Shown here piece by piece: positions 36,687-53,625 of a stretch of 64,000 bases of DNA. Each line of letters begins with the position of its first letter. Position 1 is the stretch's first letter. Source of the stretch: Dyadobacter sp. MSC1_007 (GTDB taxonomy: Bacteria; Bacteroidota; Bacteroidia; Cytophagales; Spirosomataceae); NCBI RefSeq assembly GCF_023667495.1, contig NZ_JAMOZL010000012.1:248001-312000 (forward strand), in the 5' to 3' direction. Under the pieces are notes generated by a model that saw only the letters and a list, made by a program, of their open reading frames with translations, was not told the DNA's origin and searched no databases. Made by a program: the position numbers and the translations under genes.

Positions 36687-38327
36687 ATGATGACTATCAA
36701 AAACCTTGCAAAAATTACCCTTGCCGCTTTCAGCTTTCTGAATGCAGAAGCGCAAACCGAATACAGCTGGAAAAACCTTCCAAAAGTGCAGCAGCCTGTA
36801 TTCAGGCGCGACACTGTCCGTATTACCGCTTTCGGCGCAAAACCCGACGGTCACACCCTCAATACCCAGGCCATCAACCAGGCGATCGATGCTTGCAACA
36901 AGAAAGGCGGCGGGGTTGTGCTCATTCCCCAGGGATTATGGATGACCGGGCCCGTGGTGATGAAAAGCAATGTAAACCTGCATCTTAGCGAAGCGGCGAC
37001 GCTGCTTTTCACAACCGATAAGTCGCAATATGCGCTTACCGAAGGGTTTTATGAAGGAAAAAGTGCTGCCCGGAACCAATCGCCGATTTCGGGATTAAAG
37101 CTGGAAAATGTGGCCATTACCGGTAAAGGAATTGTGGATGGGAACGGCGACGTGTGGAGAGCGGTGCATAGGGGTCAGCTTACCGAGAGCCAATGGAAGG
37201 AAAAGGTAGCGTCGGGAGGCGTGCTGAAAGACGACGGCAAGACCTGGTACCCCAGCGAACAGTTTAAAAAGGCCAGTACGGAGAATAAAAGCATGCTGCT
37301 TACCCCCGGAAAATCCCCCGCCGATTTTGCCGATATGAAGGATTTCCTTCGTCCGAACCTCATTGTGTTCAACAATTGCAAAAAAGTATTGCTGGAAGGG
37401 GTTACCTTTCAAAATTCAGCTGCCTGGTGCATTCATCCGCTGATGTGCCAGGACCTGACGATCCGTAACGTGCGCGTGAAAAACCCGGAATATGCCCATA
37501 ATGGCGACGGAATGGATATCGAATCCTGCAAAAACTTCCTGATCGAAGGTTGCACGCTCGACGTGGGCGATGACGCGATCTGCATTAAATCAGGGAAAGA
37601 CGAGGAAGGGAGAAAGCGCGGAATGCCTACCGAAAATGGTGTGATACAGAACAATACAGTTTATAACGGACACGGCGGCTTTGTGGTCGGAAGCGAAATG
37701 AGCGGCGGTGCGCGTAACATCTTTGTGCGTAACTGCACCTTTATGGGTACTGATAAAGGATTGCGTTTCAAGTCGGTAAGAGGTCGTGGAGGAGTGGTAG
37801 AGAAAATTTTTGCCAAGGATATTTATATGAAAGACATTGCCCAGGAAGCGGTTTTCTTCGACCTGTATTACTTTGTGAAGTTTGCGACGGACGGCGAGCG
37901 TGATATGCGGGAAGTGGTTAATGAAGGCACGCCTGTTTTCAGGGATATGCATTTTGAGAATATCGTTTGCAATGGCGCTACCAAAGGGGTTTTTGTGAGA
38001 GGCCTGCCCGAAATGCCTGTCAGGAATATTGTAATGGAGAATATGGTGCTCACCGCTGAAACCGGCATGGAACTTACCGACGCCGATCAGATCCGTTTCA
38101 AGAATGTGAAATTGCTGACAAAACACACGAAACCGGTCATATTGATTGACAACGGGACCGGTCTCAGTTTTGACAACATCCAATATAACGATCACAGCGA
38201 GACGTTAATCTCGGTGAACGGGGCACGCAGTAAAGCCATTACCATGCAGCATACCGACCTGTCGAAGGCGCAAAAAACGAAAGAATTCAGCAAAGGAGCG
38301 GACGAGAAAAGCCTCGCCATCCATTAA
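36687..38327 (+). CDS. Glycoside hydrolase family 28 (polygalacturonase-like), first copy
   Basis: A 546-residue secreted enzyme with a signal peptide (about 1-22, ending NAEAQ); a second ATG follows directly. The GH28 right-handed beta-helix active site is complete: N272-G-D274 (HNGDGMD), D295-D296 (VGDDAICIKSG), H329 (GHGGF) and R360-F-K362. These enzymes hydrolyse alpha-1,4 linked galacturonic acid or related pectic bonds by inversion. It follows susD1 and is the only enzyme gene of this unit. Exact pectic substrate is not decided. Its end overlaps that of the convergent ABC-F gene by 4 bp. Confidence 0.95.
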   Translation: MMTIKNLAKITLAAFSFLNAEAQTEYSWKNLPKVQQPVFRRDTVRITAFGAKPDGHTLNTQAINQAIDACNKKGGGVVLIPQGLWMTGPVVMKSNVNLHLSEAATLLFTTDKSQYALTEGFYEGKSAARNQSPISGLKLENVAITGKGIVDGNGDVWRAVHRGQLTESQWKEKVASGGVLKDDGKTWYPSEQFKKASTENKSMLLTPGKSPADFADMKDFLRPNLIVFNNCKKVLLEGVTFQNSAAWCIHPLMCQDLTIRNVRVKNPEYAHNGDGMDIESCKNFLIEGCTLDVGDDAICIKSGKDEEGRKRGMPTENGVIQNNTVYNGHGGFVVGSEMSGGARNIFVRNCTFMGTDKGLRFKSVRGRGGVVEKIFAKDIYMKDIAQEAVFFDLYYFVKFATDGERDMREVVNEGTPVFRDMHFENIVCNGATKGVFVRGLPEMPVRNIVMENMVLTAETGMELTDADQIRFKNVKLLTKHTKPVILIDNGTGLSFDNIQYNDHSETLISVNGARSKAITMQHTDLSKAQKTKEFSKGADEKSLAIH

Positions 38328-42017: not shown

Positions 42018-43133
42018 TTAAAACTTGAAGGAAACACCTGCATTCACGGAATAATCTGCGAATGCAGCATCTCCACGAACAAAAGTGTTGGTCTTAACAG
42101 AATTTTCCTTGTCGGTTACGCTTTGCGTACGGTTACGCACGAAAGCAACAGGCACAGTTACAAAAAAACTGAACTTTTTGCCAGAATAATTGATGCCCGG
42201 CTCAATACTCCACACATAACCCGGCCTGCGGAAATCGCCGCTGCCACCTACGATATCATGTACAGGAATGCCTTCCAACCGGGCACCTGCGGCAATAGAC
42301 AATCCATGAACAAGCGTGTTGAGTGAATAGCTGAACCCGCCGCGCGCCATATATTGGTCGGGAACACTCATGATTGCCTCGTTGGCAAGCCTGGGCGTCA
42401 ACGTTTCGCGATAAGTACGGACCCCGTTTTGCTCACGCGGGTTAACGAGGTAGTAGAAGTTACCATACACGCCAAAGTTTTGGACCAGGTTATAATAAGC
42501 ATTCAGTTCTGCAGTGAAGCCAGTGCCGCCGTCTCCAAGCTGGATAGACTGGTCAACCGTGCGCAGTTCCTTGCCACCGTTTGGGCCAACATTGTACCAG
42601 TAGTCTTCATATTTGTAATCGCCGGTAGGAAGTTTAATGCCAAGTCCCAGTTGCACATTCCCGCGGGTACTTCTTTTAGGATTGAAAAGCCAGTGATAAG
42701 CGGCAATGCGCAGGTCACCGATGCCGAAGGACTGCATGCTATGCCTTTGGTTGAACTTGTTAGACCCATTCACCAGGCCGTGCTCGTACAATGAAGAACG
42801 TGCGTTAGAAATGATCGGAAGGTCGATCATGATAGACCAACGGTCATTAAGAATGCGGGTAAGGTTGAAGTCAATCGAAGCGGTATGATTAATTACCTCG
42901 GTCTGTTGTTTCAAACGTTCCTTGTTTTCCTCTGTACCCGAAAAATGGCGGAACGATTTGAAATACCTCGCACTGGTGGTCAGGATCCATTGCTGGTGAT
43001 CGGAGCTGTCGGCATGAGCGAGCATACAGGCGCCGCCGGTCCCTCGTATCGCAACGCACCCCTGTGCGTTGGCCTCTTGCGCGGCAAGAGAAATAAGTAT
43101 AATGTTGATTAACAGGTATATGTGCTTTTTCAT
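42018..43133 (-). CDS. Putative outer-membrane beta-barrel protein with Cys-rich N-terminal motif
   Basis: The ATG at 43133 (MKKHIYLLINIILIS) gives a 371-residue protein with a signal peptide ending EANA or NAQ. Right after it lies GCVAIRGTGGACM, with C26, C36 and M37. The rest is a run of amphipathic strands (GNVQLGLGIKLPTGDYKY, LNAYYNLVQNFGVYGNFYYL) and a C-terminal Phe (VSFKF), as in outer-membrane barrels of the phenol-degradation MetA type. The Cys/Met motif may bind copper or haem, which would fit the adjacent cytochrome c peroxidase; this is inference. Confidence 0.7.
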   Translation of the reverse strand: MKKHIYLLINIILISLAAQEANAQGCVAIRGTGGACMLAHADSSDHQQWILTTSARYFKSFRHFSGTEENKERLKQQTEVINHTASIDFNLTRILNDRWSIMIDLPIISNARSSLYEHGLVNGSNKFNQRHSMQSFGIGDLRIAAYHWLFNPKRSTRGNVQLGLGIKLPTGDYKYEDYWYNVGPNGGKELRTVDQSIQLGDGGTGFTAELNAYYNLVQNFGVYGNFYYLVNPREQNGVRTYRETLTPRLANEAIMSVPDQYMARGGFSYSLNTLVHGLSIAAGARLEGIPVHDIVGGSGDFRRPGYVWSIEPGINYSGKKFSFFVTVPVAFVRNRTQSVTDKENSVKTNTFVRGDAAFADYSVNAGVSFKF

Positions 43134-43189
43134 GAGTGGAATGATAAAATTCGGCCCAAATTCGTTTCTAGCGATTATAGTTCTCAATA

Positions 43190-43263: not shown

Positions 43264-44361
43264 TTACAATTGTCCCGCAAGCGCTTCCAAAAGCCGGTCT
43301 ATAACTGCATGCATCGCATCTCCATCGGGGGTAGCTTTTGAAAATCCAGGCCATTGCGACGCCTCTGCAATGCCCTTTTCAAGATCTAATTGCACTTCAT
43401 TTTGATAGGGGACAATTTGCCGTGCATGGAGGCTTTTGGCGAGATATTCCTGCTCCGACTGTCCCGGCGTAGGCACCAGTAAAGCTTTCTTGCCCATAAC
43501 CGCCAGATCCATTAATGTCGAATAGCCGCTTCTGCAAATCACAATGGGCGCTTTTGCAAGTAACGGGCCTAATTCGCCAGCATTCGCATGCGTATAGTAA
43601 TGTACGTGCTCAGGAAGTTGAGTCGGCGAAGAACCAGACGGGTTACCGGCAATGATCGTGAATTGGTACTGTTTTAGCGCTGCGGCCTGATGAAGTATTT
43701 TCTGTTCAAATATGCGGCGCATGGGCTCTGGCCCTGACAGAAGCACCAGTATCTCGCCGTCAGATGGTGTTGAATGCTCCCTTTTTGTTTCCAGTTGCGA
43801 TAATGGGCCAATGTAATGCGCATTCGAGGGCAGATGGTCGGGATGGGAAAGTGCTCCGGCCAGCCCGGTGGAACCGGCATGGTCCACAACCCAGCATTCA
43901 TCGAATTTTTCGAGCTGCCGGTAGTGCAGTTTTCGAACGATTCGGTCCGCCAAAGCCCCTGATCCGGTCAGGATCTGTAACTGATGCGTCATGATCACCG
44001 AGTAAGTGCCCCGGATTTTGAGGCCATACCGGTTATCCGAGATGACCAGGTCAAAATTTTCAGTTGATTGCAGCTCCCGGAGCCAGCGCCGCTCTTTATT
44101 AACGGAGCGAAGAATGCGGGGCACCTGCATCAGTATCTTTGCAACGAATGCGCCTGCACGCCGACTGTAAGTGATCCTGTAACCGGGCAAGGGCAATATC
44201 CGAAGCGACGGAAAGTTGCTGTGCAACAGCGTTGCTACCTGGCCTTCTGCCGCAATGGTGACGCTGCATCCCTTCGCAAGGAGGTAACGGATAACCGGAA
44301 TGCACCGGGTCGCGTGTCCCAGTCCCCAGTCCAGCGGCGCTATCAGGATCTTGATTGGCAG
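43264..44361 (-). CDS. MurG-like glycosyltransferase (GT-B fold) with probable non-AUG start
   Basis: The frame contains a conserved N-terminus, IKILIAPLDWGLGHATRC, before the first TTG (44226), so the gene must start further up. Between the upstream in-frame stop (44409-44411) and this motif there is no ATG, GTG or TTG; the CTG at 44361 is proposed, giving 365 residues, the usual size of this family. GHATR is the sugar-acceptor loop known from MurG-like enzymes, and LGPLLAKAPIVICRSGYSTLMDLA with PTPGQSEQEYLAKSL is the donor nucleotide-binding part. It lies 44 bp after the response-regulator gene. The sugar and acceptor are unknown. Confidence 0.8.
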   Translation of the reverse strand: MPIKILIAPLDWGLGHATRCIPVIRYLLAKGCSVTIAAEGQVATLLHSNFPSLRILPLPGYRITYSRRAGAFVAKILMQVPRILRSVNKERRWLRELQSTENFDLVISDNRYGLKIRGTYSVIMTHQLQILTGSGALADRIVRKLHYRQLEKFDECWVVDHAGSTGLAGALSHPDHLPSNAHYIGPLSQLETKREHSTPSDGEILVLLSGPEPMRRIFEQKILHQAAALKQYQFTIIAGNPSGSSPTQLPEHVHYYTHANAGELGPLLAKAPIVICRSGYSTLMDLAVMGKKALLVPTPGQSEQEYLAKSLHARQIVPYQNEVQLDLEKGIAEASQWPGFSKATPDGDAMHAVIDRLLEALAGQL

Positions 44362-44405: not shown

Positions 44406-44819
44406 TTAATTCGGGTCATTAAATCTCAATGCGCGTTCCGCGAGCTGCGTCAGAAGCGGTCCCTGTACCGGTTTTTGAAGGTACTCCATCACATGTTCCG
44501 AATGCATTGCACGCTGATAGTCGCCCTCCTCGCTGGAAGAACTCATCACACAGATCGAAATGGGACTTGAAACTTTACATTTCAGTTTGCCATATTCCTG
44601 CAAGAACTGCCAGCCGTCGAGGACCGGCATATTGATATCGAGGAGTATTAGCTGGGGCAATCGCAACTGGTCTTCCCGGTGTTGGGCAAGGTAGTCGAGG
44701 GCATCCCGACCATTCTCAAAAAAAATGATTTCGCGTGCGATACTTGCCTTTTCAATAATCTTTTTTAGCAGGAACGTGAAGATCTTATCGTCATCTATCA
44801 CGCAGATTGTTTCAAGCAT
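44406..44819 (-). CDS. Single-domain response regulator
   Basis: A 137-residue receiver domain without output domain. Acidic pair D9-D10 (VIDDD), phospho-acceptor D61 in LILLDINMPVLDGW and conserved K in LQKPVQGPLL. Its ATG lies inside the end of the histidine kinase gene (8-bp overlap), so it is translationally coupled to it. Such stand-alone receivers act by protein contact or as phosphate relays. Confidence 0.95.
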   Translation of the reverse strand: MLETICVIDDDKIFTFLLKKIIEKASIAREIIFFENGRDALDYLAQHREDQLRLPQLILLDINMPVLDGWQFLQEYGKLKCKVSSPISICVMSSSSEEGDYQRAMHSEHVMEYLQKPVQGPLLTQLAERALRFNDPN

Positions 44820-46425
44820 TTTCGTTAAAAGTGATTTTAAATGTGGTGCCTACATTGACCCGGCTAAAAACCTGGATTTTGCCGCCCTGGGCTTCTATCT
44901 GGTTTTTAATTAAAAACAAACCTACGCCGTGGGCCTCGTCGTGCTTGTGAAAAGTTTTGTATAAACCAAAGACCTTATCGGCATGCATATCGAGATCAAT
45001 TCCTTTTCCTTTATCGCTGTATTCCAATACTTTGACTCTCGTTTCGTTGCGATAGAAGCGAAGCCTGATGCTCGGTGGCTGGTTGTCTTTTGCATATTTG
45101 ATACCGTTGGTGATCAGGTTCATCAGAATGCTTTCCAGATAAAGATGAGGAAACACGATGGTATCGGTGGAGAAGTCCAGATCAATCTCTGCCTGAGATT
45201 TTTCAATGCTTTCATTCAGTACGCTCAATACTTCATTGGTTACGGCCCGCATGCTGAGTATTTCACCTTCGAGTTGATTGTTCCGGATCTTGATTACCTG
45301 CGAAAGATCATCGAGCGTGCCGCTCAGGTGGTGGGAAACCGTCTTGATCTTCTGAAAAATCTCCTCATTTTCCTTGTCCAGTACCGACTCGTTCACAAAA
45401 TCGGTCAGGAGGGAAATGTTACTCGAATGATTTCTGAGGTTATGAGAAAGGATGTGGGTGAAATTTTGCAGCTGGCTGTTCTTCTGCGCCATCTGGTCAA
45501 TGGATTTTTTCAGGTCCAGTTCGAGGGTTTTGTACTTGTCGATATCCATAATGATACCCCGGATACGTGTTACTGTGTTTTGCGCATTGTACACCGGCGA
45601 GGCTGAAAACCTCACCCATTTACGAGTTCCATGGCCGGTGATCAGATGTAATTCGTGGTCCCAGGTGTCGCCCGTCCGGATCACTTCCCGGATCGCGTCC
45701 TGCAATGTAAGCTGGTAATGCAGTGGAAAAAACCGCAAAAGGTCCCGGTTGTGGCGGATTTCTTTTTCATCGGCCTCAAAAATAGCCCCGCAAGCCCCGG
45801 TCCATTTATACTGCTCTTCGGCAACATCGTATTCCCATCCCCCGAGCTTGCCCACGTTCCCGGCGGCTGACAGCAAGAATTCGCTTTCAGCCAGTTTGTC
45901 TTCGACCAGTTTGCGCTCATCAATCTCACGCTGCAGGTCGGAAACAGACCGGAGCAAATGTACATTCGGGAATATCCTGAAAAGGTAATAGACAGTAGAA
46001 AGCGAGACAGCGGCGGTCATGAACCGAACGAGCGCGCTCAGGCGGTAAACAGGCACCCAAAACATCAGGGCGTCGATAAAATGGGTAGTCCCGCAGAATA
46101 ATATGAATGCACCGAACATCCATAGCGCTTTTGGAAACGGGAAGTCCTTTCTTATCAATACAAGCCGGATCAGGAATGTCGGGATCAGAAAATAGGCACT
46201 CCAGATCAGCAGGTCCGAAACAATGTACAACCAACCGTGAAAATCACTCCAGTTGCCACAATACCATCTCGCAGGCCACTGGTTTGTATCGAACAAGCCC
46301 TGGAAAAAGGTAGCTACCTGCGTGGGAAGATCCTCCTGTGCCGCCCGAAGAGGCAGTGCATTGGTACGACAAATCGGTATACTGTCGTCCGGGATAGCAT
46401 TTATGGTCGCTATGATCGGGGTCAT
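44812..46425 (-). CDS. Histidine kinase with ethylene-receptor-like membrane domain
   Basis: A 537-residue kinase. The membrane domain (about 64-158, three helices) matches the ethylene-binding domain of plant ETR1: D71, Y78, I81, P82, I108, C111 and H115 correspond to ETR1 D25, Y32, I35, P36, I62, C65 and H69 with the same spacing. C111 and H115 lie in FGAFILFCGTTHFI and would hold the copper ion. A short coiled coil (160-182), a PAS/PAC sensor (about 185-297), HisKA with H328 (ILSHNLRNHSSN) and a HATPase domain (NLITNGIKYA, GVGLFLIKN) follow. It pairs with the overlapping receiver gene. Ethylene binding is inferred, not shown. Confidence 0.9.
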   Translation of the reverse strand: MTPIIATINAIPDDSIPICRTNALPLRAAQEDLPTQVATFFQGLFDTNQWPARWYCGNWSDFHGWLYIVSDLLIWSAYFLIPTFLIRLVLIRKDFPFPKALWMFGAFILFCGTTHFIDALMFWVPVYRLSALVRFMTAAVSLSTVYYLFRIFPNVHLLRSVSDLQREIDERKLVEDKLAESEFLLSAAGNVGKLGGWEYDVAEEQYKWTGACGAIFEADEKEIRHNRDLLRFFPLHYQLTLQDAIREVIRTGDTWDHELHLITGHGTRKWVRFSASPVYNAQNTVTRIRGIIMDIDKYKTLELDLKKSIDQMAQKNSQLQNFTHILSHNLRNHSSNISLLTDFVNESVLDKENEEIFQKIKTVSHHLSGTLDDLSQVIKIRNNQLEGEILSMRAVTNEVLSVLNESIEKSQAEIDLDFSTDTIVFPHLYLESILMNLITNGIKYAKDNQPPSIRLRFYRNETRVKVLEYSDKGKGIDLDMHADKVFGLYKTFHKHDEAHGVGLFLIKNQIEAQGGKIQVFSRVNVGTTFKITFNENA

Positions 46426-46893: not shown

Positions 46894-47628
46894 TTATTGA
46901 AGGAGCCTGTACAGGTAGGGCGCTTTATTGGCTGCACCAGTATATTTTTTTTCGAGGCGTTCAAGCGCATTCAGGGACAGGATCTTTTTTTGAAAGTTGT
47001 TGCGCGCAAACGGCCGGTCATAAATCGTTTCGTACAGCTCCTGCACGTCTTTCATGGTAAAAGTTTCGGGAAGGAGTTTGAAGGCACTCAGTTTCTGGTC
47101 GAGGGTGATCCGCAGCGTTTCCAGCGCATGCACGACGATCTCGCGGTGGTCCATGATCATTTCCGGCAAATCTTTCACGTCATACCATTCGATAAAGGCA
47201 TCGAGGTCGCTCTTCTGCGGCACAACATGGCTGATATCAACCAATGCATAATACCCGATCGAGACAAACCGGCGGGTAAACCATTCGTAATCTCCTCTTC
47301 TGAACTCTTCACCGGGATCCGGCGTAAACAATGAAGGGTTCAGTTCAATTAACCTATCCAGGAACTCCTTGCTGCTGCGGCCCGCCTTGCCGGTTACCCA
47401 GAATTGTTCCAGGAACACATCGCTGATGCCTGTCCGCTCCTGAAGAATGCGCTGGGCAGCTTCATCGACACCTTCATGCTGGTATACAAAACCACTCGGT
47501 AATGCCCAGAAGCCGCCTTTGAACCGGAGTTGCGGCACGAGCACTTTCAGCTTTCTGTCTTGATAGCCAAAGATGACACAGTCGACAGAAAGTTGATCAA
47601 TATATCCTTGCTCGCTGAGAGGGTGCAT
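46894..47628 (-). CDS. Nudix-domain transcriptional regulator (NrtR/AraR-like)
   Basis: A 244-residue protein with an N-terminal Nudix fold (about 10-150) and a C-terminal winged helix (about 165-235, FTMKDVQELYETIYDRPFAR and NNFQKKILSL). The Nudix box is degenerate: G-x5-E-x7 is kept but the catalytic REUxEE core reads RILQER, so hydrolase activity is unlikely. Proteins of this build control arabinose, xylose and other sugar genes in Bacteroidota. A perfect 9-bp dyad stands 96 bp upstream, facing the divergent gene at 47825, and is its probable operator. Confidence 0.9.
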   Translation of the reverse strand: MHPLSEQGYIDQLSVDCVIFGYQDRKLKVLVPQLRFKGGFWALPSGFVYQHEGVDEAAQRILQERTGISDVFLEQFWVTGKAGRSSKEFLDRLIELNPSLFTPDPGEEFRRGDYEWFTRRFVSIGYYALVDISHVVPQKSDLDAFIEWYDVKDLPEMIMDHREIVVHALETLRITLDQKLSAFKLLPETFTMKDVQELYETIYDRPFARNNFQKKILSLNALERLEKKYTGAANKAPYLYRLLQ

Positions 47629-48241: not shown

Positions 48242-48291
48242 CGGAATGCCTTCCCGGAGTTTAGAACCTTGGGAAGGCATTCCGTTTTTTT
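48242..48291 (+). terminator. Strong terminator before the second GH28 gene
   Basis: Perfect 14-bp arms (CGGAATGCCTTCCC and complement) with a 15-base loop and seven T. It ends 9 bp before the GH28 ATG at 48300, so the enzyme gene is either expressed by read-through or under attenuation control. Confidence 0.88.
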
Positions 48292-48299
48292 GCTGTGTT

Positions 48300-49874
48300 A
48301 TGAAGCGTTTTTTGTTTTTGTTGCCGATTTTATGGGCGTCCGCTACTGCTGTAAATGGACAGGTATCTGATGAAGGTTTACGAAATGTACCAACAGTTGC
48401 CGAGGTAGGAGCAGAGCGGCTTCCAGCAGACATTGCGCCGGTAAAAGCGCCTTTTCCAATGCCCGTCTTCAAGAAGCCCGCGTTCCGTCCGTTGACGGTG
48501 GATATCACCAAAAAAGGAGCTCGTGCGGGTATTTTAGTCACCAAAATGATCCAGGCAGCGATCGATGAAGTGAACAGTAAGGGCGGGGGAACGGTGCTGG
48601 TACCGAAAGGGACCTGGCAAACCGGTAGGATTAACCTGAAAAGCAACGTAAACCTGCACGTGAGTGAAGGCGCCGAACTGCATTTCAGCGGTGAAATCGC
48701 CGATTACCTTCCTGCGGTTTTTACAAGAAACGAAGGCGTGGAACTGATGTCGCTTGGCGCGCTGATCTATGCAAACGGACAACAAAATATAGCCGTTACC
48801 GGTAAAGGCAAACTGGTAGGCCCGCCCGCGGGATCGCCCGTGCGCAAGCGTATTATGACTACGGATGTGATCGAGAAAGTCGTGCCAGCTGACAAACCGG
48901 TTGCTGAAAGGGTATATGAGGGCGAAAACGGTACCTTCGTTTTTCCGCCGATGTTCGTTTCACCTATCAATTGTAAAAATGTTTATATCGAAGGCATTAC
49001 ACTGGAAAACACGCCATTCTGGAATGTGGTACCTGTATATTGCGACAATGTGATTATCCGTGGCATCACCGTCCGGTCGGTCGGTATCCCGCGTGGCGAC
49101 GGGATCGACATTGAATCGTCACGGAATGTGTTGATCGAATATTGTACGCTGAGTTGTGGCGACGATTGTTTCACCATTAAAGCCGGCCGCGGGGAAGACG
49201 GTATCCGCGTAAACAAGCCGACGGAGAACGTGGTGATCCGATATTGTCTCGCCCGCGAAGGCCATGGCGGCATTACCTGCGGCAGCGAAACGGCGGGCAT
49301 GATCCGTAATTTATATGTTCATGACACCGTATTTGACGACACCGACACCGGTATCCGCTTCAAAACACGTCGCTCCCGCGCCGGTGGCGGGGATAACCTC
49401 ATATACGAGCGCATTCGCATGAACCTGCGTGGGGACGCGATCAAGTTTGATATGCTTGGCAGCAGGCAATATGTTGGCGAGCTCGCCGACCGTCTGCCCG
49501 TACGCGCCGTCGACCGCCTCACGCCTGCATACAGGAACATCACAGTCAAAACGGTTCTTATTGAAAAAGCCCGCGTGTTCATAGACATTACCGGCATCCC
49601 CGAATCCCCGGCAAGTAATCTGCTCATTGATAATGCCGAAGTGCATAGTAAAGGTGCATTCAAAGCCAGCGACGCAACCGGTATTACCATCCGTAATGCA
49701 ACCCTGCACATCACCGACACGCTCATGCGTTCGCTCGGCGTCCGCAATGTTCTTTTTGAAAAGGTACAGTTCAAAACCCCCGACAACCGGATCCACATGC
49801 AGGTCGAAGAAGGAACGCCCAAGGACATCCGCTTTGTGGATTGCATTCCGGCGAAACCCGAAAGTTGGAACTAG
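48300..49874 (+). CDS. Glycoside hydrolase family 28, second copy
   Basis: The ATG at 48300 (MKRFLFLLPILW) starts at the signal peptide (to VNGQ); a frame start 54 bp upstream lies in the terminator stem. The 524-residue enzyme has the GH28 active site: D267 in PRGDGID (Arg replaces the usual Asn two residues before), D288-D289 (CGDDCFTIKAG), H322 (EGHGG) and R353-F-K355. It shares the general layout of the first GH28 (36687) but is clearly diverged. The Arg change may alter the pectic substrate. SusC2/SusD2 follow 391 bp downstream. Confidence 0.95.
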   Translation: MKRFLFLLPILWASATAVNGQVSDEGLRNVPTVAEVGAERLPADIAPVKAPFPMPVFKKPAFRPLTVDITKKGARAGILVTKMIQAAIDEVNSKGGGTVLVPKGTWQTGRINLKSNVNLHVSEGAELHFSGEIADYLPAVFTRNEGVELMSLGALIYANGQQNIAVTGKGKLVGPPAGSPVRKRIMTTDVIEKVVPADKPVAERVYEGENGTFVFPPMFVSPINCKNVYIEGITLENTPFWNVVPVYCDNVIIRGITVRSVGIPRGDGIDIESSRNVLIEYCTLSCGDDCFTIKAGRGEDGIRVNKPTENVVIRYCLAREGHGGITCGSETAGMIRNLYVHDTVFDDTDTGIRFKTRRSRAGGGDNLIYERIRMNLRGDAIKFDMLGSRQYVGELADRLPVRAVDRLTPAYRNITVKTVLIEKARVFIDITGIPESPASNLLIDNAEVHSKGAFKASDATGITIRNATLHITDTLMRSLGVRNVLFEKVQFKTPDNRIHMQVEEGTPKDIRFVDCIPAKPESWN

Positions 49875-50265: not shown

Positions 50266-53200
50266 ATGTCTTACAACTACAAGTACGGGTTGAATCCCTT
50301 TGGGAACAACTTACCCAAGTCGCTTGTCGGCTTTGCCCTGGTGGCCCTGGTAGGCGGCCCGGGCCTGGCGAAGTCGCCCGCAAACGAAAGGAACGCCTTC
50401 GCCCCGTTAATCGCAGAACTGCATGTCGGTGCTGTAAAAGCCGATCGGAAAATTACCGGAAAAGTTACAGATGGCGCTACGCCGGGAGGGTTGCCGGGCG
50501 TAAACGTAATTATCAAGGGAAGTCAAACGGGTACGGTAACGGATGCAAATGGAGCTTACAGTCTGGACATTCCGGACGCCGGCGCTACCTTGGTTTTTTC
50601 ATATGTAGGCTTTCTTACTCAGGAGCTGGAAGCAGGAACGAGGAGCATTATCGATGTACAGCTTGTGGCTGATAGCAAATCACTTAACGAAGTGGTGGTC
50701 GTAGGTTATGGAACGCAGAAAAAAGTCAACCTCACAGGAGCGGTGGACCAGGTTGGGCAGGAAGTATTTCAAAACCGGCCGATCCCTAATATCGCTCAGG
50801 GGCTCGTGGGAGCGGTTCCTAACCTGAACATCCGCATGTTCGACGGTAAGCCGACGCAATCACCTAGCTTCAACATCCGCGGAACGACCTCGATCGGGCA
50901 GGGCGGTAGCGCGTTGGTACTGATCGATGGCGTGGAAGGTGACCCGCGCGTGCTCAATCCCAACGACATTGAAAGTATATCGGTTTTAAAAGATGCCGCG
51001 TCCGCGTCCATTTACGGAGCGCGTGCCGCATTCGGTGTTGTTCTGATCACAACGAAGTCGGCGTCCGAGGGTAAAACGACTATCTCCTATTCAGCGAATT
51101 ACTCCATTAAATCGCCAACAGAAGTACCGGATAATATCACCGATTCTTACCCGTGGGCGCAGGGTTTCAGCGATGCATGGTCGCGGTGGAATGACAACGG
51201 AAGTACACCGACTGCCATCAACAAAACCATTAGTTTTTCTCCCGCTTACCTGGCGGAGATCAAGAGAAGGTGGGAAGATCCTTCGTTGCCACGCGTGGAA
51301 GTAAACCCCAACACAGGCGAGTACCAGTATTTTTATAGTACAGATTGGTATAAAGAGCTATACAAAGAGCGTTTCAGTGCTCAGGACCATAACCTGTCGC
51401 TTTCCGGAGGTAATGAGAAATCTACATTCTACCTCAGCGGACGCTATAATGGACAGGATGGTCTGTTCCGGTACAATTCCGACAATTACAGCATGTACAA
51501 TCTGCGCGCAAAGGGAAGTATTCAGCTTACCTCTTGGCTCCGGATCGACAACAATACCGAATATTCGGCCATGAAATACCACCAGCCGCTGAACGTAGGT
51601 GAAGGCAGCGGGGTTTACCGGAATATCGCGGATGAGGGCCATCCACTGGCCCCATTGCTCAATCCCGATGGTACACTGTCTTTCTCGGCGGCTTATACCG
51701 TGGGCGACTATTACATTGGTCGCAATGGTATCGACAATACCCAGCGTTTCCTTAAAAACAAGGTCGCAGCCAAATCGCAGTTCTTTGACAAAACACTGTC
51801 GATCAGGGCGGATTTGACTTTTCAGAGCACCGACATCGGTTCGCAGCAGAACCGTGTGCAGGTGCCTTACAGCCGGGCGAAAGGTGTGATCGGTTATACG
51901 GGTACCAACACCAACGATCTTCAGGAGCGGAAAAGGACTACCAATTATCTGGCAACGAACTTTTACGCTGATTACGTCAAATCCATTAATAATACCCACA
52001 ATTTCACATTGCTGGCCGGATTTAACTACGAACAATCTGTTTACAGCAACCTCACAGCCCAGCGCAACGGGATCGTGTATGGCGGCGCGGACGACATCAA
52101 CCTGGCGTTAGGGCAGAGTATCGTGACCACCGGTGGTTATCAGAAATGGGCCATTGCAGGTGGATTTTTTCGGGCCAACTATAACTTCCGTGAACGCTAT
52201 CTGCTAGAAGTGAATGGCCGTTATGACGGTTCTTCCAAGTTCCCGACAGATCAGCAGTGGGCATTTTTCCCGTCGGTATCAGCCGGTTGGAGGGTGTCCG
52301 AAGAGCCTTTCTGGAAAATGGACCCCAAAATTCTTTCGAACGTAAAATTACGTGCTTCTTATGGTTCATTGGGTAATGGTAATATCAGCCCGTATTCTTT
52401 TACGGAAAACTTTGGGATCAGCCAGTCGGGCCGGATCATCAATGGCGTGCGGCCACAGAAGACCAGCCAGCCGAATGTAGTGCCCGACGGACTTACCTGG
52501 GAGACTTCCACAACCGGTAACCTGGGCCTTGATTTCTCTGCTTTAAATAACAGGCTAACGTTTGTAGGAGACTTGTACCGTCGCTGGACAGAGAATATGT
52601 TCACAGCGGGTCCTACCGTTCCAGCCGTCTTTGGTACGAAGGTTCCGAAGGGTAACTATGCGGACCTGAAAACCACAGGCTGGGAGCTTTCAGTAAACTG
52701 GTCGGACCAATTCACGATGGCATCCAAGCCATTTAAATATGACCTGCGGTTTACATTAGCCGATTCGAGGGCCGTTGTTACCAAATTCAATAACCCGGAT
52801 AAAAGCCTCAACGACATCAATAACCCGGACAGGGAGCTCACCAACTACTATGAAGGCCAGCGTATCGGTGAAATCTGGGGATATAAGGTAGCAGGACTTT
52901 TCAGGTCGCAAGCCGAAATTGCCGACTCTCCTTCGCAGGCGAATATTCCCAATACGAATACCCGTAAGAATTACGTAGGCGATCTCAAATTCCAGAACCT
53001 CGACGGTGACAATGTCATTTATCAGGGACTAAACCGGGTAGGGAGTTCGGGTGATAAAACCATTATCGGAAACTCGGAACCGCGTTACACTTATGGTATG
53101 AACGTCTCGGGGGACTGGAATGGCTTCTTCCTGTCCGGATTCTTTCAGGGCGTGATGAAGCAGGATTGGTACCCATCGTCGGAAGCGCGGTTCTGGGGGC

Positions 53201-53625
53201 AATATAACCGTCCTTACAATGCCTATCCACGCTGGCAGCAGGACAATATGTTCCGCGAGGAGCTGGGTAATTTCGACGCTTACCTGCCCCGTCTGGTGGG
53301 TTACGTCGCGCAAGGTACCGGCCGTGCATTGCAGGTTGCAAACGACCGCTATTTGCAGAATGCCGCTTACATCCGGCTCAGGAACTTGCAGGTTGGGTAC
53401 ACCATACCGCAACGCATTGTCTCCAAAATCCACGCCCGCGACCTGAAAGTGTATTTGTCCGCAGAGAATCTCTGGACCTGGTCGCCCATGTATAAATGGA
53501 CCCGCGACACCGACGTGACCAGCATTTACGGATCCGACCGCGATTTAGGCGGAGGAAACAGTGGCGACGGGTATAACTACCCCATGCTGAAAGCGGTATC
53601 GTTAGGTCTGACACTCAACTTTTGA
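50266..53625 (+). CDS. SusC/RagA TonB-dependent transporter (SusC2)
   Basis: A 1119-residue outer-membrane transporter without STN domain. The N-terminus is unusual: about 20 polar residues (NYKYGLNPFGNNLPK) precede the hydrophobic core SLVGFALVALVGG. A carboxypeptidase-like domain (about 60-150), the plug (NEVVVVGYGTQKKVNLTGAV, ASASIYGARAAFGVVLITTK) and the barrel (ending SLGLTLNF) follow. It partners SusD2, which starts 6 bp after it. Its likely cargo is pectin-derived oligosaccharide, judged from the GH28 gene upstream. Confidence 0.96.
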   Translation: MSYNYKYGLNPFGNNLPKSLVGFALVALVGGPGLAKSPANERNAFAPLIAELHVGAVKADRKITGKVTDGATPGGLPGVNVIIKGSQTGTVTDANGAYSLDIPDAGATLVFSYVGFLTQELEAGTRSIIDVQLVADSKSLNEVVVVGYGTQKKVNLTGAVDQVGQEVFQNRPIPNIAQGLVGAVPNLNIRMFDGKPTQSPSFNIRGTTSIGQGGSALVLIDGVEGDPRVLNPNDIESISVLKDAASASIYGARAAFGVVLITTKSASEGKTTISYSANYSIKSPTEVPDNITDSYPWAQGFSDAWSRWNDNGSTPTAINKTISFSPAYLAEIKRRWEDPSLPRVEVNPNTGEYQYFYSTDWYKELYKERFSAQDHNLSLSGGNEKSTFYLSGRYNGQDGLFRYNSDNYSMYNLRAKGSIQLTSWLRIDNNTEYSAMKYHQPLNVGEGSGVYRNIADEGHPLAPLLNPDGTLSFSAAYTVGDYYIGRNGIDNTQRFLKNKVAAKSQFFDKTLSIRADLTFQSTDIGSQQNRVQVPYSRAKGVIGYTGTNTNDLQERKRTTNYLATNFYADYVKSINNTHNFTLLAGFNYEQSVYSNLTAQRNGIVYGGADDINLALGQSIVTTGGYQKWAIAGGFFRANYNFRERYLLEVNGRYDGSSKFPTDQQWAFFPSVSAGWRVSEEPFWKMDPKILSNVKLRASYGSLGNGNISPYSFTENFGISQSGRIINGVRPQKTSQPNVVPDGLTWETSTTGNLGLDFSALNNRLTFVGDLYRRWTENMFTAGPTVPAVFGTKVPKGNYADLKTTGWELSVNWSDQFTMASKPFKYDLRFTLADSRAVVTKFNNPDKSLNDINNPDRELTNYYEGQRIGEIWGYKVAGLFRSQAEIADSPSQANIPNTNTRKNYVGDLKFQNLDGDNVIYQGLNRVGSSGDKTIIGNSEPRYTYGMNVSGDWNGFFLSGFFQGVMKQDWYPSSEARFWGQYNRPYNAYPRWQQDNMFREELGNFDAYLPRLVGYVAQGTGRALQVANDRYLQNAAYIRLRNLQVGYTIPQRIVSKIHARDLKVYLSAENLWTWSPMYKWTRDTDVTSIYGSDRDLGGGNSGDGYNYPMLKAVSLGLTLNF

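Follow-up and report, generated by a model that had tools for sequence, protein, structure and literature searches.

The question raised by this locus is whether a soil bacterium of the Bacteroidota, Dyadobacter sp. MSC1_007, carries a two-component system built around a receptor of the ethylene-binding kind. The window analysed is a stretch of 64,000 nucleotides (contig NZ_JAMOZL010000012.1, positions 248,001 to 312,000), in which a preliminary description had read one gene as a histidine kinase with a complete ethylene-receptor-type membrane domain, and had linked it to a receiver, a glycosyltransferase and pectin-degradation genes. We conclude that the kinase and its receiver probably constitute an ethylene-receptor-type two-component system. 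Bacterial sensors of this sort are already known; the one in the window comes from a separate branch. The domain order, the complete binding site, the intact kinase boxes and the conserved gene pair can be read from the sequence itself. The copper, ethylene as its ligand, the dimer and the direction of the response we infer, and the assignment of ethylene is all the more indirect because the window domain lies outside the branch of AzoEtr1, the receptor of Azospirillum brasilense.

The kinase gene (44812..46425) encodes a protein of 537 amino acids consisting of an N-terminal tail, the membrane domain, a PAS domain and the kinase; the gene, all features placed in it below, and the receiver and glycosyltransferase genes lie on the minus strand. 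Residues 63-155 (45961..46239) match the Pfam model ETR1_N (PF25487) with E=1.8e-31 and a score of 108.7 bits (cut-off 27), which confirms the membrane domain family; its place on a histidine kinase is also as first described. In the 7.45-Mb genome of the strain the profile has a single location, the same place as the ORF, and it had no matches in 14 control genomes; with this score and these clean controls the window match is not a chance one. A PAS domain is matched weakly by Pfam, near the cut-offs, at residues 207-295 (45541..45807), and C-terminal to it a HATPase_c catalytic domain is found at residues 430-535 (44821..45138; E=7.5e-14), with N, G1 and G2 boxes present. The Pfam HisKA model has no match in the window kinase, and the putative phospho-acceptor, His328 in the box SHNLRNH (45442..45444), was placed by alignment. 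With it, the boxes of the kinase (acceptor His, N, G1 and G2) appear intact, judged from the alignment and the HATPase_c match. The NCBIfam matches shown for the kinase, the receiver and the glycosyltransferase were all below the model cut-offs.

The seven residues D71, Y78, I81, P82, I108, C111 and H115, which had been held to stand at the spacings of ETR1, were all located in the translated ORF, with distances (D-Y 7, D-I 10, D-P 11, D-I 37, D-C 40 and C-H 4) equal to those of ETR1. Their ETR1 counterparts we take to be D25, Y32, I35, P36, I62, C65 and H69. The available part of PMC6586836 names C65, H69, D25, I35, P36 and I62, Y32 being absent from that part. By alignment and with the same source, Cys111 (46093..46095) and His115 (46081..46083) would be the Cu(I) ligands, and Asp71 (46213..46215) is by analogy a residue that sets affinity: in the excerpt of PMC13012798, replacing the equivalent Asp of ETR1 by Asn reduces the affinity for ethylene about 100-fold, and a conserved lysine is the salt-bridge partner of that aspartate. 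The full seven-residue site is present in 83 of 107 distinct segments (83 of 96 among those above 100 bits), and its columns all fall within the 15 best conserved in the alignment of these 107 segments. Within Dyadobacter it is kept in 31 of 34 copies, the exceptions being L094 (P82 to Ser), L114 (Y78 to Phe) and L124 (D71 to Leu).

The salt-bridge lysine of ETR1 is presumably K91, and in the alignment its place is taken by Arg134 (46024..46026), a likely partner of Asp71. Over 94 rows, D71 is lost in 7 of the 10 that lack Lys or Arg at position 134, versus none of the 84 that have one (Fisher p=1e-8); on the tree this covariation amounts to two independent pairs only (sign test p 0.5), and for that reason we regard it as suggestive. 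Cys56 (46258..46260), aligned just N-terminal to the first membrane helix, comes close to the copper ligands in its conservation, being kept in 82 of the 83 distinct full-site segments (L123 has Phe). Where C111 is replaced, in nine segments, Cys56 is missing from eight (five as gaps) and kept in L150. Conversely, C111 is kept without Cys56 in L141 and L123, and L069/L070 are gapped at the Cys56 position, which argues against a strict link between the two cysteines. Cys56 may form a dimer disulfide, like C4/C6 of ETR1, or be part of the site. Divergent ETR1_N-like domains were also seen in the genus g93 (L138, L139, L140 and L142, from genomes G309, G356, G389 and G345), with the copper Cys changed to Thr, Ser or Ile, P82 to Ser, and Asp and His kept; these genomes also carry better-scoring ETR1_N copies. 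In a Taibaiella MAG (L038, 1837-2883), an ETR1_N domain carries Ser for the copper Cys and Tyr for the copper His, and no longer has Cys56 either.

An AlphaFold2 model of the window domain, built from a 72-sequence alignment, has a mean pLDDT of 90.1 and a pTM of 0.77. It predicts three membrane helices (61-91, 98-120 and 127-155), with C111 and H115 one turn apart on helix 2; from the helix limits, D71/Y78/I81/P82 and I108/C111/H115 would each lie roughly on one face. The published ETR1 model, in the part of PMC6586836 available, has the C65/H69 copper sites at the dimer interface, with one copper per monomer. A profile search of the PDB with the family alignment gave no matches at E up to 1, and a PDB fold search gave none at E <= 0.001; since neither found a solved structure, a stable bacterial version would also be a target for structural work. 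The fold of a viral protein model in BFVD, A0A8E4UZR7, was matched with E=1.6e-3, probability 1.00 and 21% identity, and this is possibly a virus-carried domain of the ETR1_N kind.

Receiver and kinase are coupled, as had been proposed. The receiver gene (44406..44819) encodes a stand-alone response regulator of 137 amino acids, in which Pfam found no other domain, and shares 8 nt with the end of the kinase gene. Such an overlap, of 8-86 nt with ORF starts set mechanically, is seen in 30 of 34 Dyadobacter copies. The other four are L093 (a different kinase type) and L106, where no receiver was found, and L118 and L124, in which membrane domain and kinase are in separate or cut frames and the receiver lies 888 and 568 nt further on. 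Near the pair, the surroundings of the 34 Dyadobacter loci vary over several contexts: the kinase is present in 34 and the receiver in 31, and any other gene family in 13 at most.

The glycosyltransferase (43264..44226, 320 amino acids, with a GT28 C-terminal domain in Pfam) had been counted in the same operon. Its ORF does begin on the same strand, 179 nt past the receiver stop, but its family adjoins the pair in only 11 of 34 Dyadobacter loci, and for the genus the idea that it is a constant component is rejected. The fourth protein (42018-43187) has no NCBIfam match. Between 43100 and 46950 there are 7 promoter-like sites, versus 5.4 (sd 2.3) in shuffled sequences, and 3 terminator-like sites, versus 3.9 (sd 2.1); being near the shuffled values, these counts give nothing to build on. 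A Bacteroidota-type promoter pattern has five sites in the window, but the region ahead of the kinase has none. The kinase gene is preceded, on its own strand, by a gene for a NUDIX/NrtR-type regulator (46894-47628), which was not found close to the receptor in other loci.

Of the 32 Dyadobacter copies whose kinase can be read, 31 keep the acceptor histidine. The exception, in genome G021 (L106, 5309-6916; the same gene is in L015), has Asn in its place and all seven site residues. In a search with the receiver of its relative G002, the top match in G021 reaches 33% identity, compared with 83% in G022, 69% in G034 and 47% in G007. G021 has lost the histidine and the partner receiver together, and this joint loss, a single case, supports phosphotransfer as the normal output; from its sequence the G021 receptor is a candidate for a naturally kinase-inactive form. 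Three of the 34 Dyadobacter copies (L103, L108 and L120), of 403-416 amino acids, lack the PAS domain, as do all seven loci compared from other Spirosomataceae (L125-L131).

The host is, as described, a member of the Bacteroidota, in the genus Dyadobacter, and the receptor is a common gene of that genus and not an isolated transfer. ETR1_N was found in 33 of 48 Dyadobacter genomes, that of the strain included, and is lacking from the other 15. In the wider samples, which overlap one another, it occurs in 68 of 200 genomes at the level of the family, 38 of 194 for the order (37 above the cut-off), 18 of 295 for the class (12 above the cut-off) and 21 of 395 for the phylum. Seven of the 12 loci in named genomes are from Dyadobacter, the best being D. 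beijingensis at 72% identity. Among 72,556 plasmid records, 18 hold relatives, 7 of them Azospirillum plasmids.

In the main tree (65 domains, 154 columns) the membrane domains are split into groups of 39 and 26 rows with support of 99/97, the bootstrap being not fully settled, and a quick tree of 97 rows has the same split (99). The window side, branch B, includes all Dyadobacter rows, other Spirosomataceae, further Bacteroidota, two Planctomycetota and the unclassified MAG L039. On the other side, branch A, are AzoEtr1, three more Proteobacteria, further Bacteroidota and two cyanobacterial plasmid proteins, of Pseudanabaena and Kovacikia, standing in for SynEtr1 (Slr1212). AtETR1 is on a very long branch outside B that joins near the A-B divide in the main tree, and so its exact place is unsure. 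The window domain thus sits in a deep branch of Bacteroidota and Planctomycetota that holds none of the AzoEtr1, plant and cyanobacterial sequences used: the seven residues do align with those of AtETR1, as expected from the preliminary description, but the branch is not that of AzoEtr1. One genome, G379, carries both branches (L063 and L156).

Sixteen marked positions differ between the branches. Branch B has the signature WPxRWxCGxWsDFHGWLYI, and R53, W54, G57, G64, W75, A119 and R134 are among the residues that it specifically conserves close to the site or in the N-terminal segment. Position 134 is Arg in 52 of 67 branch B rows (Leu in 9, Lys in 6) and Lys in 26 of 29 rows of branch A (Asp in 2, Arg in 1). 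Our literature search found no experimentally characterised member of the Bacteroidota/Planctomycetota branch, and no paper on such receptors in either phylum; prior mention is possible, given the remark in the excerpt of PMC11819568 that putative ethylene receptors occur in other bacterial phyla.

The proposed tie between ethylene sensing and pectin degradation is not borne out. GH28 genes are present in 41 of 48 Dyadobacter genomes, among them 27 of the 33 that have the receptor and 14 of the 15 that lack it. With no association at the level of the genus the link as stated is rejected, a result that is still compatible with a role on plants. The window itself has two genes of the GH28 polygalacturonase-like type (36687-38327 and 48246-49874; Pfam, genome search), the second followed by a large ORF (50266-53625) whose product resembles a TonB-linked outer-membrane receptor, and together these look from their sequences like a pectin-use region. 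The window pectinases look like a trait of the genus rather than something that partners the receptor. For ACC deaminase, a common plant-ethylene trait, the genome of the strain has only a weak match (42 bits versus a curated cut-off of 392). A plant story for the window receptor is speculation.

On the reading that we prefer, the membrane domain, a three-helix unit that probably dimerises, would hold Cu(I) between Cys111 and His115 of helix 2, at a site shaped by Asp71 of helix 1 in its pairing with Arg134 of helix 3. Binding of ethylene to the copper, itself likely, would alter autophosphorylation at His328, from which the phosphate would pass to the co-translated receiver. As the receiver has no DNA-binding or enzymatic domain, it presumably works through contact with other proteins. 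The PAS domain may be an accessory input or a conveyor of the signal, dispensable in some species. Against this reading are the branch, which differs from that of AzoEtr1, the 4 of 34 Dyadobacter copies without an overlapping receiver, and the unmatched HisKA model.

The same fold could belong to a receptor that depends on Cu(I) but naturally binds something other than ethylene, such as CO or a different small unsaturated molecule; this branch would then be a functional subfamily of its own. We think this unlikely. The deep split of the family and the branch-specific residues listed above speak for it, and D. sediminis and D. frigoris suggest, as species names only, non-plant habitats; against it, all seven ethylene-site residues are kept, D71 included, whose change to Asn is so costly in ETR1 (excerpt of PMC13012798). 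Taken further, branch B might form another class of copper-based membrane receptors with a function of its own. Its Asp-Arg pair, in place of Asp-Lys, and the RWxCGxWsDFHGW segment would adjust it to a different ligand or affinity; it may have diverged before the spread of the class from which the plant receptors came, and in some lineages it would work independently of kinase activity, as plant receptors do. This broader proposal, too, we consider doubtful.

It is quite improbable that the Cys/His site together with Cys56 reports Cu(I) supply or oxidation and not a gas. The close co-occurrence of Cys56 with the full site, and its absence from eight of nine segments with an altered copper cysteine, would fit such a copper or redox sensor, but Y78, I81, P82 and I108, which metal ligation alone does not need, are about as conserved as the ligands, the ethylene-binding AzoEtr1 keeps Cys56, and L150 keeps it without C111. 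Least of all do we expect the membrane domain to be a relic, with the PAS domain driving the kinase. The separate or cut frames of L118 and L124, and the Dyadobacter copy without an acceptor histidine, count in its favour; set against them are the 31 of 34 Dyadobacter copies with all seven residues and the PAS-less L103, L108 and L120, which keep membrane domain, kinase and receiver.

Should the ethylene-receptor-type system that we favour indeed bind ethylene, proven sensing of a gas hormone would extend beyond the cyanobacteria and Proteobacteria of the literature consulted, with a simple two-gene readout, to the Bacteroidota, which are widespread in soils and on plant roots. The branch also offers natural variation at D71/R134 and at the copper cysteine for the study of how ethylene binding originated and is tuned.

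Domains of this type had been introduced as well known from plants and cyanobacteria, which holds, but their range is wider, with a proven alphaproteobacterial case in AzoEtr1 and matches in many Bacteroidota genomes. The available parts of PMC7700396 and PMC6682694 cover bacterial ethylene receptors of cyanobacteria and Proteobacteria, and in that of PMC11819568, AzoEtr1 binds 14C-ethylene directly and is a protein of 525 amino acids with the order membrane domain, PAS and kinase, and an overlapping gene for a 135-aa receiver without output motif. There, AzoEtr1(1-130) was expressed in Pichia as a GST fusion. The Azospirillum Sp7 locus, as read here, has the same layout as published, with an 8-nt receiver overlap. 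The window protein is like AzoEtr1 in domain order, in its length (both about 530 amino acids), in the overlapping receiver-only gene and in all seven residues, and AzoEtr1 (row L086) shares Cys56 as well. However, the whole aligned proteins are only 26% identical, the membrane domains are on different branches (99/97), the H-box is AHEMSQPLN in AzoEtr1 and SHNLRNHSS in the window kinase, and the window receiver has no match to the Azospirillum receiver at E 1e-3. With this low identity, the differing H-boxes and the separate branches, the shared layout may have arisen twice. SynEtr1 (Slr1212) of Synechocystis likewise has its membrane domain on a histidine kinase with phosphotransfer to a receiver and, unlike the window protein as described here, is also a light receptor, as far as the partial sources on it go. 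The ETR1_N model scores AtETR1 at 116.9 bits and AzoEtr1 at 132 bits. With Arabidopsis ETR1 the window protein shares the seven residues and their spacing, but it has Arg134 where ETR1 has Lys91, and a longer N-terminal tail. ETR1 also differs from it in carrying a GAF domain and a fused receiver, and the kinase activity of plant ethylene receptors is, by the title of one study, reportedly dispensable for signalling.
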